Source: Spirochaeta africana DSM 8902 (lineage in GTDB: Bacteria; Spirochaetota; Spirochaetia; DSM-27196; DSM-8902). Taken from it: a stretch of 64,000 bases of DNA. This document shows positions 2 to 6,069 of the stretch, one piece after another. Positions within the stretch are counted from its first letter, which is position 1. Every line of letters begins with the position of its first letter. A program made the position numbers and the translations under genes. The stretch covers positions 1,426,001 through 1,490,000 of the forward strand of contig NC_017098.1 in NCBI RefSeq assembly GCF_000242595.2. The letters run 5' to 3'. The notes under the pieces were generated by a model. That model had not been told where the DNA came from and searched no databases. It saw only the letters and a list, made by a program, of their open reading frames with translations.

Positions 2-2278
2 ATGCTGCTGGGCGTCGGCAAGCAGGCAGCGATCGGGATGGCGACTGGTATGATCGGTGCCGGCAGCAGCTGGGCGTCTGATCATGTTACCGGTTGGGCG
101 ACCGGTGCGATCGGCGGACTTGGCGGCGAGGTTGTGGGCACGATTGGCAGCACGGCGCTGCAGGGGGCCACAATGCTGGCAAGCGATGTGGTGACCGATG
201 CGGTGCAGGCGTTTGATTTTAATAAAGATGGTCAATTGGTGTACAAGACAGCAAAATGGGAGGAAAACCGGAGCAATCGCTGGGAGAACGGAGCCGGCGG
301 GTTTCTGGGAGCCGGGCAGATCAGCAGCCTGGCGGGCAGCTTTACCAGCGGTATGCTGGCAGGCGATACCATCGGGTTCTCGGGTGTACACGCGGCCGGG
401 GTGCAGAGTGTTGCCGGATTCGGCGGCAGTCTGACCAGTATGGCAGTGGACATGGCCTTGACCGGCACCACCTCGCTGAATCTGCTGAACCTGAGCGATT
501 TCGGCTTCGGGGTGAACCAGGGGCTGTTTGAGCTGAGCCTGGGAAGCGACGGAATACGCGGAGCCTTCGGCGGCGGCGGTCATGGAATGAACTTCTCCCG
601 GCTGTCCTCGGTTGTCGGGGGGCTTGATGCCTTCGGCATGCAGCAGCGGATTCGCGGGTTCGACAACTCGGGGTCGGTAGAGTATGATGAATCCTATGAC
701 GGCTGGCGCAGCGCCGGCAGAGCCCTGCGCACCCAGTACAGCTTCGGGGACGGCGAGGCATTGAGTCAGCTCGATCGTCTGCTTGACGGCAGCGATGTAC
801 TGCGGATCGGCGGACTTGAGGACGGCACCCAGGGCCTGACCAGCCTGACCGCCGACGGCGGCCGCCTGGTGCAGCTTGCCACCCTCGGGGTACGCGGCGA
901 CACCAACAGCCAGCTGCGGGCCGGGATCGTGCTGCAGCACGAGGCGTATCGCAGCGGGGTGGTCGGCAGCGCGGCCGAGCAGCGCTTTAACACCGACCAG
1001 GCCGTCGCCGGTCACGCTGCAATGGCCTGGCGCATGGCCCAGCAGTTCGGCGCTGATTTTCTGGAGGGAGACGCCGCGATGATGGAAAGCTACGAGGCAT
1101 TCGATCACATGGTCACCACCGGCGACGCCTCCCGGCTGGCGGTGCACGCGGGACGGTTTGATGCGTCGGATGAGTATTGGCGTCTGATGGAGGATGGGAC
1201 CATCGTATGGGATGGAAGACGTGGATTGTACGACGAGGACGACAATCTTATTCGACTGGCAGTGGATGAGGACGGAATGACATTGGGGTATGGCGAAAGT
1301 CTCCTCGAGTATATGGGTGAGGACAATGCCCGACAGTTTCTTGCATCACGCGGAACGTCGATAGACGGGATGTCCGATAGAGAAATCGGTCTTGCACTGA
1401 TGGATACGTTGCCACTTACTTGGACGGTAGATGACGTTCCGATTGATCCAAATATGGCTGATCTTATGGATCGTGATTCCATTAATTATCAAACGGCGAG
1501 AAATGCCTGGCTTGGTGATTCGTATGAGCTTAGCGTTGTAAGAGAAGGTGTACTGCTGGCCAGCGAGAGAGGACCGTCGTTACCGTTTTTTGCTTCGGAT
1601 GATGTTTTGGCACAAGTTGCTATGAGAGATGAGATTATCGGACATATGAACCTGTATGATGCGGTACGTCAACTTGGATACGGAAATCCTGAAGGAGTTC
1701 AGAACTTCCTTGGAACTCTCGAACAACGGCAGGCCGAATATAATGAGCGGTATGTGAACTCTGGCATGGCGTTTACTCCTGAGAATTTCATTAGTCAGAC
1801 ATTTTATAATGAGCTGAACCGTTATCCATTGACCAATGGTTCGTATATAAGCTACATCCACTCGGGAATTGATACAGTAGGCCCAAATACCGAGGTTGTC
1901 AGTCCTGGATTTCTGCGCGCTGTAGATATTCCTGAGGCAACTCAAAGAGATAACGCAACTGTTTTGGGATTGGTCGGTAGCGATGTGCATTTCCGGTTAC
2001 TACACATGAATCCGACACAAATGGGACAAATTGGTGCCAATGCCATGTACACTCCTGGACAGGTGATCGGAGACTATGGAACGTGGTATAATGTGCTGGC
2101 GCATTTGCACCTTGAGGCAACCCGACTGAATGATAATGGCACTCGCGGTTTTGTCGATCCGTTGAATACTAGTGGGACGTGGTATCCAGGAAGTGATTTC
2201 TGGGGCCGATACGAAGAATTGTTGCCTAATGGTCTTTACAGAACCACTGGTGGCTGGCCATCAACATTCCCTAGATGA
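2..2278 (+). CDS. Large secreted spirochaetal protein, 5'-partial, with M23 peptidase-like C-terminal tip
   Basis: The frame is open at the window edge, so this is the 3' part of a longer gene; 758 residues are visible. Residues 1-390 are rich in Gly, Ala and Ser and include a block beginning VLQHEAYRSG near residue 310. From memory this block resembles large Leptospira-type secreted proteins (TIGR04388-like). After about residue 395 the DNA becomes clearly AT-richer and the protein changes character. The tip holds the M23 (LytM) zinc ligands in order: H620-S-G-I-D624 and H701-L-H703-L-E. A GQ-x-IGDYG turn lies between them, as in active peptidoglycan endopeptidases. A small signal-peptide gene follows 21 nt downstream. 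A conserved body with an exchangeable toxic tip is my inference. The family of the body is uncertain; the M23-like fold is fairly secure. Confidence 0.75.
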   Translation: MLLGVGKQAAIGMATGMIGAGSSWASDHVTGWATGAIGGLGGEVVGTIGSTALQGATMLASDVVTDAVQAFDFNKDGQLVYKTAKWEENRSNRWENGAGGFLGAGQISSLAGSFTSGMLAGDTIGFSGVHAAGVQSVAGFGGSLTSMAVDMALTGTTSLNLLNLSDFGFGVNQGLFELSLGSDGIRGAFGGGGHGMNFSRLSSVVGGLDAFGMQQRIRGFDNSGSVEYDESYDGWRSAGRALRTQYSFGDGEALSQLDRLLDGSDVLRIGGLEDGTQGLTSLTADGGRLVQLATLGVRGDTNSQLRAGIVLQHEAYRSGVVGSAAEQRFNTDQAVAGHAAMAWRMAQQFGADFLEGDAAMMESYEAFDHMVTTGDASRLAVHAGRFDASDEYWRLMEDGTIVWDGRRGLYDEDDNLIRLAVDEDGMTLGYGESLLEYMGEDNARQFLASRGTSIDGMSDREIGLALMDTLPLTWTVDDVPIDPNMADLMDRDSINYQTARNAWLGDSYELSVVREGVLLASERGPSLPFFASDDVLAQVAMRDEIIGHMNLYDAVRQLGYGNPEGVQNFLGTLEQRQAEYNERYVNSGMAFTPENFISQTFYNELNRYPLTNGSYISYIHSGIDTVGPNTEVVSPGFLRAVDIPEATQRDNATVLGLVGSDVHFRLLHMNPTQMGQIGANAMYTPGQVIGDYGTWYNVLAHLHLEATRLNDNGTRGFVDPLNTSGTWYPGSDFWGRYEELLPNGLYRTTGGWPSTFPR

Positions 2279-2299
2279 TAGACCTGAGGAGAAAGTCAA

Positions 2300-2752
2300 A
2301 TGTTGAGTGAAAACCGAGTTGTTATCACAATTATGAGCTTACTGTTGCTAGTATCGAATGTTACTGTTTATGCACAAGAACAGTCCTTTGAAGGGGTCTG
2401 GATTCGTAGTCCTACAGAATCAAAGAATTTCGATCCCTTTACTCCAGACTTCGTAATGATTGATCGCATTGGGGCACACTACTTAGTTGTATTTGTTAAC
2501 TCTATTATTGAGGGAGATCGTGTTCTTGCAGAATCCTTTCATCATTTGTATCGATTAGAAGCGGCCACTCTTATAAGTACCGGGACACGTTTATCCCGGA
2601 TATCAACACTTCACTTAACCTCAAGTGATGAACTTGTTGAAATTATTGAAATTCCCGAGATTGGGGAATCGGGAGAGAATATCTATGTGAGACCGACAAT
2701 CGGTGATTTTGCATCCATGGTTGAATGGTATGGCTATGATCTTGATAAATGA
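2300..2752 (+). CDS. Small periplasmic protein of unknown family; candidate immunity partner
   Basis: This 150-residue protein has a typical signal peptide (hydrophobic core at about residues 8-22, then VYAQEQ, a likely signal peptidase I site). The mature part is about 125 residues, acidic and predicted mostly beta; I recognise no family. A Shine-Dalgarno GAGGAG at 2286-2291 sits 8 nt before the ATG, and only 21 nt separate it from the stop of the secreted peptidase-like gene, so the two are probably co-transcribed. It shares the AT-rich composition of the upstream tip. Export to the periplasm, where an M23 enzyme would attack peptidoglycan, makes an immunity role plausible. An unrelated accessory lipocalin- or DUF-type protein cannot be excluded. 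Confidence 0.6.
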   Translation: MLSENRVVITIMSLLLLVSNVTVYAQEQSFEGVWIRSPTESKNFDPFTPDFVMIDRIGAHYLVVFVNSIIEGDRVLAESFHHLYRLEAATLISTGTRLSRISTLHLTSSDELVEIIEIPEIGESGENIYVRPTIGDFASMVEWYGYDLDK

Positions 2753-2904: not shown

Positions 2905-2933
2905 GATAACGTATAATATCTTGCGCAATTTCA
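2905..2933 (+). repeat. IS256-family left terminal inverted repeat
   Basis: The inner 18 bases (2916-2933, ATATCTTGCGCAATTTCA) match the reverse complement of 4217-4234 with one mismatch. The outer 11 bases match less well. Confidence 0.85.
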
Positions 2934-3008
2934 AGTTTCGATAAAAAGAAAGTCCTCAATCTGACGATTGATTAAGTACGACCCAAACCAAGTCAGAAGG
3001 AGGACCCC

Positions 3009-4190
3009 ATGGGTAAGATTATCGAGATAAACGAGCAGGAAGTCAAAGACCATTTGGGTAATTTTGTCAGGGAGACGGTGGAGGAAACCTTGAACGCTAT
3101 GCTGGAGGCAGAAGCAGAACAGCTGTGTAATGCGCAAAAACATGAGCGCAGCTCTGAGCGAACGGGGTATCGTGCCGGACATTATGATAGGAAACTGCTA
3201 ACGAAAGCAGGCGAAGTGAATCTGCAGGTTCCCAAGCTGAAGAAGGTGACGTTTGAAACTGCCATTATTGAACGGTATAAGCGACGCGAGATCTCTGTTG
3301 AGGAGGCAATGGTAGAGATGTACTTGGCTGGCGTTTCTGTCAGACGTGTCGAGGATATCACCGAAGCCCTTTGGGGTGCCAAGGTCTCACCAGGAACTAT
3401 CAGCAACCTCAATAAGAAAATCTACGAAGAAATTGAAAAATGGCGCAACCTGCCGTTGAAGCAGCGCTACACCTATGTCTACCTTGATGGCATCTGGATG
3501 AAACGATCCTGGGCTGGTGAAGTACGCAATGTATCCGTTCTGGTAGCCATAGGCGTTAATCAGGATGGTTTCAGGGAGATAATCGGGGTTGCCGAAGGCA
3601 CCAAGGAAGACAAAGACAGCTGGCAGCGATTTCTCCGCTATTTGAAAGGCCGGGGACTGGAAACAGTGGAGATGTTTATCTCTGACAAGTCTCTGGGATT
3701 GGTAGAAGCGATACCAGAGTTTTTTCCTGATTCCCGGTGGCAGCGGTGCGTAGTGCATTTTTACCGCAATGTATTCAGCTTTGTTCCGCAGGGAAAAGTC
3801 AAAGCTGTTGCAACCATGTTGAAGGCCATTCATGCCCAGGAAAACCTGGAAGAGGCAGTCCGAAAGAAAGACCAGATTGCGAAGAAACTGATTGAAATGA
3901 AATTGTCCAAAGCAGCGGAGATCGTTCGAGAAGGTGCATTAGAAACCTTCTCGTATTATTATTTCCCGGTCGAACACTGGAAACGGATCAGGACCAATAA
4001 CGGGCTTGAAAGAATCATGCGAGAAATCAGAAGGAGGACACGTGTAATCGGTTCGTTCCCTGATGGTGAGTCAGCACTGATGCTGGTTGCAGCACGACTG
4101 CGCCACATCTCGAACTCAACATGGAGTGAACGGAAATATCTGAATATGGATCTGATGATCGAGTACGATCACGATCATCAGGCATCATAA
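3009..4190 (+). CDS. IS256-family (mutator-type) transposase
   Basis: This 393-residue DDE transposase has the usual length for the family. The catalytic residues appear to be D160 (YLDGIW), D226 (ISDKS) and E334 (NGLERIMREIRRR, the family's characteristic C-terminal stretch). The N-terminal third carries the typical GYRxGxYxR-like segment at about 53-61. An AAGGAGGA Shine-Dalgarno lies 6-9 nt before the ATG. The reading frame is intact, so the enzyme is probably active. The second motif reads SDKS where many relatives have SDAH, a tolerated variation. Confidence 0.95.
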   Translation: MGKIIEINEQEVKDHLGNFVRETVEETLNAMLEAEAEQLCNAQKHERSSERTGYRAGHYDRKLLTKAGEVNLQVPKLKKVTFETAIIERYKRREISVEEAMVEMYLAGVSVRRVEDITEALWGAKVSPGTISNLNKKIYEEIEKWRNLPLKQRYTYVYLDGIWMKRSWAGEVRNVSVLVAIGVNQDGFREIIGVAEGTKEDKDSWQRFLRYLKGRGLETVEMFISDKSLGLVEAIPEFFPDSRWQRCVVHFYRNVFSFVPQGKVKAVATMLKAIHAQENLEEAVRKKDQIAKKLIEMKLSKAAEIVREGALETFSYYYFPVEHWKRIRTNNGLERIMREIRRRTRVIGSFPDGESALMLVAARLRHISNSTWSERKYLNMDLMIEYDHDHQAS

Positions 4191-4216
4191 CAGCAGGGTC
4201 ACAGATTGATGGACGC

Positions 4217-4245
4217 TGAATTTGCGCAAGATATTTGACACTACC
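4217..4245 (-). repeat. IS256-family right terminal inverted repeat
   Basis: This is the reverse-complement partner of 2905-2933. It begins 26 nt after the transposase stop codon. Confidence 0.85.
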
Positions 4246-4253
4246 TCCCTTGA
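4246..4253. repeat. Right target-site duplication of the IS256-family element
   Basis: TCCCTTGA, identical to 2897-2904. Confidence 0.85.
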
Positions 4254-5119: not shown

Positions 5120-5659
5120 TTATTCCGATAGCTCCCGAATTTCCTTCTCGCTCAGGCCGGTGATGTCGGCGATATCGGTAATGCTGAATCCGCGATCCAG
5201 CATCTTGCGGGCATCCTCGCGGCGCGCCTGCTGCATGCCTCGCTGCTCGGCATTCTGTAGTTTCGAGTTCACATCCTTTAACCATTTTTCGCGGGCTTCG
5301 GCCATGTCCATGAGTTCGGCGTTGGCGGTAAAGTCACGGTAGACTCGGTGGGCCTTGCCCAGCGCATCGTTCTCCTTCAATAGTACTGTCATCTCATCCT
5401 CCTCTACAGAGCCTTCGTTTTCAAAGTAATAGCACCACGTATCGAGCCTGCTCTTTACATCAGCGGTACTTTCCAGCTGGTTCTTGGGCAGTTCAATGAA
5501 ATGAATCTGCAGGTGTTCGCTCAATACGTATTCGGGCTGATCGACCTCCGTGACCTGAAAACAACTGTGGTAGCCGGGAAGTTGCGGGAATATCTCGAAA
5601 TCCAGCAGATTGATGCAGACCGCAGGGTTCAGCGGGCGTACCTTCTGGCTCATAGGCAA
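5120..5659 (-). pseudogene. Rpn/PD-(D/E)XK nuclease family transposase, 5'-truncated
   Basis: The 179 readable residues match the C-terminal half of Rpn-type recombination-promoting nucleases. The family's mid-protein segment is visible (PAVCINLLDFEIF, then LQIHFIELPK), followed by a basic, Arg-rich stretch and a terminal helix-turn-helix-like end (GFSITDIADITGLSEKEIREL). The N-terminal nuclease half with the D-ExK residues is absent: the similarity stops at the start and the upstream DNA is a GC-rich structured element. The remnant has probably lost catalysis. Whether the short protein is still made from the internal ATG is unknown. Confidence 0.75.
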
Positions 5660-6069
5660 AGTGTACCCCTATTCGTCGGGCGAATCAACAATGAGCCGGA
5701 TGCCTGTCGTGACACGTAGATCCAGATGACACCCTCCCACGCGCGAGGTGGGAGGCCGGAAACCCCTCGGGGTGCGCGGCCCGGCCGGGCGTAGGTGACG
5801 GAGCCCGAGAGCCGGCCCGGGAGATTACCGTTGCACGAGAGATGATGAATCCCGACACGACAGGAGCGCCCAACGCACCCGAGGAGTTGCAGGCCGTACA
5901 CCGACCCCGCGGACAGCGGGGGCGCGCCCATTCTTGCGTACCGAGGTTGACGACCAGGCGATCGCCGAGGCTATCGACGGATTCGAGTTCATGCAGCAGG
6001 AATTTGGGAGAAACCGCAGACGAGGCGGTGTACTAATATGGTACAGATGATTTATCTACACGGGCATGT
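5660..6069. other. Gene-free stretch with GC-rich palindromic sequence and a small coding remnant
   Basis: No complete gene is visible. Between about 5740 and 5825 the sequence is extremely GC-rich and self-complementary, including the perfect palindrome GCCCGGCCGGGC. From 5931 to the stop at 6050 one plus-strand frame reads like a real protein end (FLRTEVDDQAIAEAIDG, then GGVLIWYR), possibly the tail of a lost gene. I could not assign the element to a known family. Confidence 0.4.

Follow-up and report, generated by a model that had tools for sequence, protein, structure and literature searches.

RHS/YD-repeat polymorphic toxins, including examples in spirochaetes, were described by Zhang et al. 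(2012; PMC3482391), together with other peptidoglycan-directed toxin tips; the term "M23" is absent from the text of that paper. M23 effectors are known from T6SS, in the Tpe group of Acinetobacter (PMC6833914) and among the WHIX effectors (PMC12135965), and most adjacent predicted immunity genes in the WHIX study carry a signal peptide (PMC12135965). M23 toxins with periplasmic immunity are therefore already known from T6SS (PMC6833914; PMC12135965). A reading made from the letters of the present locus before any database search (the sequence-only reading) held that a spirochaete carrier with an M23 tip was undescribed. This stands for the open-access papers searched, in which neither the giant carrier nor a polymorphic toxin of spirochaetes ending in an M23 tip was found described, but the pairing of an M23 toxin with periplasmic immunity is not itself new.

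The window analyzed here, a 64,000-nt stretch of the Spirochaeta africana DSM 8902 genome, covers positions 1,426,001-1,490,000 of a single 3,285,855-bp contig (genome 99.98% complete). G000 denotes this genome, other G numbers the genomes compared, and L numbers loci. At a probability of about 0.8, we read the start of the window as a polymorphic-toxin tip with its periplasmic immunity protein, carried by an orphan, headless cassette of a carrier family that has no curated model.

The candidate toxin module and its linked gene

Within the window, the toxin-module ORF occupies 2-2278 on the forward strand, ends with a stop codon at 2276-2278, and encodes 758 of its 1300 aa. Nucleotide 2 was rejected as the gene start, since the window edge cuts the ORF and the true start lies upstream, at G000:1424376 (window -1624), in an open frame of 1360 aa. 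The sequence-only reading described the gene as GC-rich to about 1180 and AT-richer beyond, and this was borne out: the best single breakpoint in GC3 of the full ORF falls at residue 925 (window nt ~1151), with values of 0.80 before and 0.43 after (log-likelihood gain 79). Position 1180 was nevertheless rejected as a domain boundary, because the composition break precedes the end of carrier homology, and the M23 domain lies at nt ~1700-2239. The carrier extends to about window aa 485 (full-length residue ~1027, nt ~1455), up to which it matches sister modules bearing other tips. The AT-rich pre-toxin linker (1151-1699, forward strand) has a cassette-like composition, and its first ~100 residues are conserved in modules with other tips. 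The product had also been called secreted, a label that is unsupported for the window copy because the 1300-aa ORF lacks both a signal peptide and a full-length head. A phage collection searched with the window ORF returned no match.

Residues 567-746 of the window protein (1700-2239, forward strand) form a divergent M23 (LytM-type) metallopeptidase tip. By itself the tip has no Pfam match and does not reach the Peptidase_M23 gathering score, and it is labeled "M23-like, divergent" for this reason. Two M23 peptidases were the only PDB matches of the tip profile at E<=1 (weak, E 0.17-0.21), and hhalign comparison of the profile with canonical M23 sequences gave P=95% (E=1.7e-8). Structure models of the tip and the immunity protein were built from three-sequence alignments. 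The AlphaFold model of the tip has low confidence (pLDDT 52, pTM 0.56); searched with Foldseek, it gave M23/LytM proteins as all of the best 16 matches (probability 0.85-1.00, thereafter <0.1), and in VIA-align the same model (pLDDT 52) scored highest, at Z 8.5, against ShyA and LytU, almost every one of the top ~40 rows being an M23 protein. The original assignment of the tip to M23 is thus upheld by profile, hhalign, Foldseek, and VIA-align evidence.

Alignment of homologous tips places the predicted zinc ligands H620 and D624 in an HxxxD motif (1859-1873), an invariant H668 (2003-2005), which corresponds to the His conserved in the middle of M23 domains, and H701 and H703 in an HxH motif (2102-2110), all on the forward strand. 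Across 11 aligned tips H620, D624, G659, H668, and H701 are invariant, and H703 is conserved in at least 90%. Since H620, D624, H668, and H701 are retained in tips that are just 20-30% identical, the motif is not a chance occurrence. All three ligands named from the sequence at the outset (H620, D624, and H703) were found intact, with H668 and H701 in addition. We conclude that the tip has, as modeled, a divergent M23 fold with intact ligands, from which we infer catalysis. The tip is sporadic, with strong matches in ~9 of 395 spirochaete genomes. Matches of the tip profile (A1) at E 1e-6 to 1e-3 were not accepted as members; the three that were inspected (L101-L103) resemble ordinary cellular M23 proteins. 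A search for related loci with tip alignment A5 yielded two MAG loci, both already in the set, and nothing further.

Behind the tip, a gene at 2300-2752 (forward strand) encodes a predicted periplasmic immunity protein of 150 aa with an FEGVW motif. It is the AT-rich signal-peptide gene that had been noted 21 nt on (GC 0.395, GC3 0.325; window 0.575), and the 21-nt gap between the toxin-module stop and its ATG at 2300 contains a ribosome-binding-like GAGGAGA. The N-terminus, MLSENRVVITIMSLLLLVSNVTVYA-Q, is by eye a typical Sec signal (about aa 1-25). The AlphaFold model of the protein has low confidence (pLDDT 41), and the immunity profile found no match in the PDB. Profile A2, built from three partner genes and searched in 395 Spirochaetia genomes, gave five matches: the window, the second locus of the window's genome, G049, and two copies in G151. 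All five lie directly 3' of the tip, and homologues of the small gene occurring apart from the peptidase were not seen in these genomes. The immunity genes of G141 and G159 are related to that of the window (P=92%, E=5e-7; 0.2% for a control with an unrelated partner set), and for the partners of the G185, G244, G350, and G380 tips homology to the window gene was not demonstrable by comparison. The immunity family is fast-evolving. A signal-peptide gene of 127-167 aa lies directly behind the tip at 11 of the 12 strong tip loci; the twelfth, in G232, has no such gene within 400 nt, and HxE replaces HxH there.

Tip diversity on two carriers

Tip polymorphism was assessed in 63 modules of both carrier types, with similarity defined as blastp E<=1e-3. 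Carrier homologues end in different C-termini, and immediately behind almost all of them lies a gene that also differs and encodes a lipoprotein or a protein with a signal peptide. A tip kept constant among homologues was not seen: only 99 of 1953 tip pairs (5%) are similar. Tip and next gene are both similar in 24 pairs, the tip only in 75, the gene only in 20, and neither in 1834, an association with an OR of 29 (p 4e-21; the pairs are not independent). By a crude test, the following gene is signal-like in 61 of 63 modules, compared with 124 of 246 background ORFs. Another 32 carriers are complete at the 3' end, and in 29 of them a same-strand ORF begins within 150 nt of the stop. The locus family thus has a conserved carrier with variable C-terminal tips, a next gene that covaries with the tip, and orphan cassettes in arrays, the latter present in G000, G001, and G026. 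The layout of carrier, exchangeable tip, and cognate immunity that the sequence-only reading had recognized is supported by this tip diversity, by the OR of 29, and by the linkage of all five immunity matches to the tip.

The recognizable other tips are the wall enzymes M23, M15, and CHAP (below cut-off), and a C39-like peptidase also occurs. Because the other tips are mostly wall enzymes, the carrier seems specialized for periplasmic wall targets, with which exported immunity proteins would fit. A separate observation concerns the genes behind the tips at L108, L110, L111, L117, and L140, which are one family recurring with different tips and by eye resemble formylglycine-generating-enzyme-like lipoproteins.

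The tip occurs on two carriers. Together with the immunity gene, it is found on an RHS/YD-repeat protein in G049, in G151, and at the second locus of the window's genome (1,532,298-1,534,486; L058), where RHS/YD repeats and an RHS core are present. In the window, G141, and G159, the tip is borne by a non-RHS carrier that shares homology with the window ORF and reaches ~2,800 aa when complete; neither RHS/YD repeats nor an RHS core were recognized in the 1300-aa ORF, which has no Pfam/NCBIfam match. No Pfam or NCBIfam model matches the giant carrier, and the sole Pfam match among the carriers examined, C39, is a tip. Complete carrier homologues measure ~2,000-5,000 aa and have a Sec signal in those inspected; this was seen by eye on intact relatives, e.g., in G046, G141, and G159, and is absent from the headless window copy. 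The carrier head, a conserved stretch of ~300 residues, has profile matches in 80 of 395 Spirochaetia genomes (41 of 133 genera) and is also found in further classes of the spirochaete phylum.

Among the copies scanned, OEP (TolC-like) genes in divergent orientation, mostly accompanied by a HlyD-type adaptor gene, were seen beside full-length carriers in nine genomes of four families (L037, L038, L040, L043, L045, L049, L050, L051, and L053). These are possible export partners, or possibly ordinary synteny.

The headless array and its interpretation

The window's genome contains no carrier head detectable with two single heads or with the head profile, which detects heads across the class, and the window module is therefore a headless orphan cassette. 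It stands in an array that begins with an Rpn-type nuclease, a 982-aa module with a 416-aa partner, and a 661-aa M23 module with an LRR lipoprotein, and that continues after the window module with an IS256 element, a nuclease remnant, and a further carrier fragment. Mobile elements had been expected behind the small gene, and an IS256-type insertion sequence was located at 2905-4246 (forward strand; transposase 3009-4190, Transposase_mut 4.5e-111), one of ten ~1.34-kb copies in the genome. The remnant of an Rpn/YhgA-type PD-(D/E)XK nuclease (5120-5659, reverse strand) resembles, partly by eye, the intact gene abutting the upstream sister module. It is followed by an intermodule repeat of ~190 bp (5740-5932, no strand assigned), 86-90% identical to copies that follow two of the sister modules upstream and the RHS module (1.534 Mb), and by the carrier fragment (5948-6003, forward strand), an 85% match to the window carrier gene in its early part. 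The other repeat copies (G000:1420281-1420473, 1424099-1424258, and 1534690-1534877) follow immunity genes that belong to RHS as well as giant-carrier modules, and the repeat is a candidate recombination boundary.

Two further features of such arrays were observed. Rpn/YhgA-type nuclease genes (PF04754) lie inside the ~29-kb module array of G001 (1016807-1046013; L035/L036) in four of four copies, and in G000 one of three abuts a module (G000:1415459-1416028); these nucleases may move modules, or may merely be copied along with them. The sister M23 module at G000:1420532-1422517 (L009:9532-11517) has PHVD where PHxH is expected, so that an Asp may serve as one of its zinc ligands, or its function may be compromised.

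With regard to catalysis, target, inhibition, and delivery, we infer that the M23 zinc metallopeptidase tip would cut peptidoglycan cross-links, as its fold and metal ligands suggest, and that the Sec-exported immunity protein would bind and block the peptidase in the periplasm, a role to which strict linkage, the export signal, and known polymorphic-toxin logic point. In intact relatives the tip forms the C-terminus of a Sec-signal carrier, either RHS or a giant of 2,000-5,000 aa with the ~300-residue head, and the carrier would display or release it towards neighboring cells. Units of tip and immunity gene would swap between carriers and accumulate in arrays, the head presumably having been lost in the window's genome. 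The window array is thus a cassette store or relic, not a working secreted toxin, and the module is possibly silent because this genome has no head. A wider proposal, which we consider rather unlikely as a whole, is that of a phylum-wide antibacterial delivery family in Spirochaetota, in which Sec-exported giants with the ~300-residue head would deliver mainly peptidoglycan hydrolases, possibly through TolC/HlyD-type export or display, and exchange cassettes in arrays with Rpn-type nucleases between the modules.

Other explanations were weighed against this one. M23 enzymes often act in the producer's own envelope, and with its catalytic residues intact the tip might be an ordinary autolysin or envelope-remodeling peptidase on a structural surface protein, the small gene then encoding a dedicated inhibitor or chaperone that has no role in competition. 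However, the carrier bears many unrelated tips, the tip is found on two unrelated carriers and strongly in only ~9 of 395 genomes, and there are also the AT-rich, cassette-like composition and the arrays of orphan modules; we regard this explanation as highly improbable. That the module is a dead relic, decaying and functionless here while the family-level story alone is alive, is a minority possibility to be taken seriously, and it is compatible with the polymorphic-toxin reading. The lack of a head or signal peptide for the module in this genome agrees with it, as do the carrier fragments, the IS256 insertion, and the broken neighbors, but decay over a long time is made less likely by the intact 1300-aa and immunity ORFs and by the presence of all five catalytic residues. 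In other systems, orphan cassettes serve as a reservoir or retain immunity. The small gene could, lastly, encode a second secreted component of the peptidase (a co-toxin, activator, or adaptor) instead of an immunity protein, given that the support for immunity comes from linkage. There is little probability of this: the neighboring gene changes along with the tip, a behavior typical of immunity genes, and the product of the small gene, being short and bearing a signal peptide, matches the periplasmic immunity proteins that accompany wall-cutting toxins of T6SS (PMC12135965).

Comparison with described systems

Under the polymorphic-toxin reading, spirochaetes gain a candidate competition system whose carrier has no curated family model and occurs in about one fifth of the sampled Spirochaetia as well as in other classes. 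The presence of one tip/immunity pair on both the RHS and the giant carrier amounts to a natural swap experiment in which cargo and delivery can be told apart. Should both the M23 tip and the 150-aa protein encoded behind it prove active, the immunity family would represent a new type of inhibitor of M23 enzymes.

Among spirochaete proteins, those of TIGR04388 ("Lepto_longest"), from Leptospira-like spirochaetes, resemble the window family: they are large, bear a Sec signal, vary at the C-terminus, and in several cases have a gene immediately behind them. Membership of the window-family carriers in TIGR04388 was rejected, as none of them scores above the curated cut-off; there was no significant library match. 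A comparison for more distant kinship, of TIGR04388 with the carrier head, gave P=43%. The TIGR04388 proteins L150-L154 of G551 have differing C-termini, with a small gene at -10 to +1 nt behind three of the five, which gives TIGR04388 proteins the appearance of another polymorphic-toxin carrier of spirochaetes.

With M23 peptidases of the lysostaphin, LytM, and ShyA type, the window tip has the fold and the HxxxD, H, and HxH ligands in common, whereas it is divergent (no Pfam match alone) and stands in a toxin context with an immunity gene. T6SS M23 effectors and the window module share an M23 toxin domain; unlike in those effectors, no VgrG, WHIX, or T6SS context was seen at the window, and the carrier is a giant Sec-signal protein. 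RHS polymorphic toxins (PMC3482391) resemble the window system in that the carrier is constant, the toxin at its C-terminus can be exchanged, an immunity gene is linked, and orphan cassettes occur. The window carrier differs in not being RHS and in matching no Pfam/NCBIfam model, and yet RHS proteins in G000, G049, and G151 bear the same tip/immunity family.
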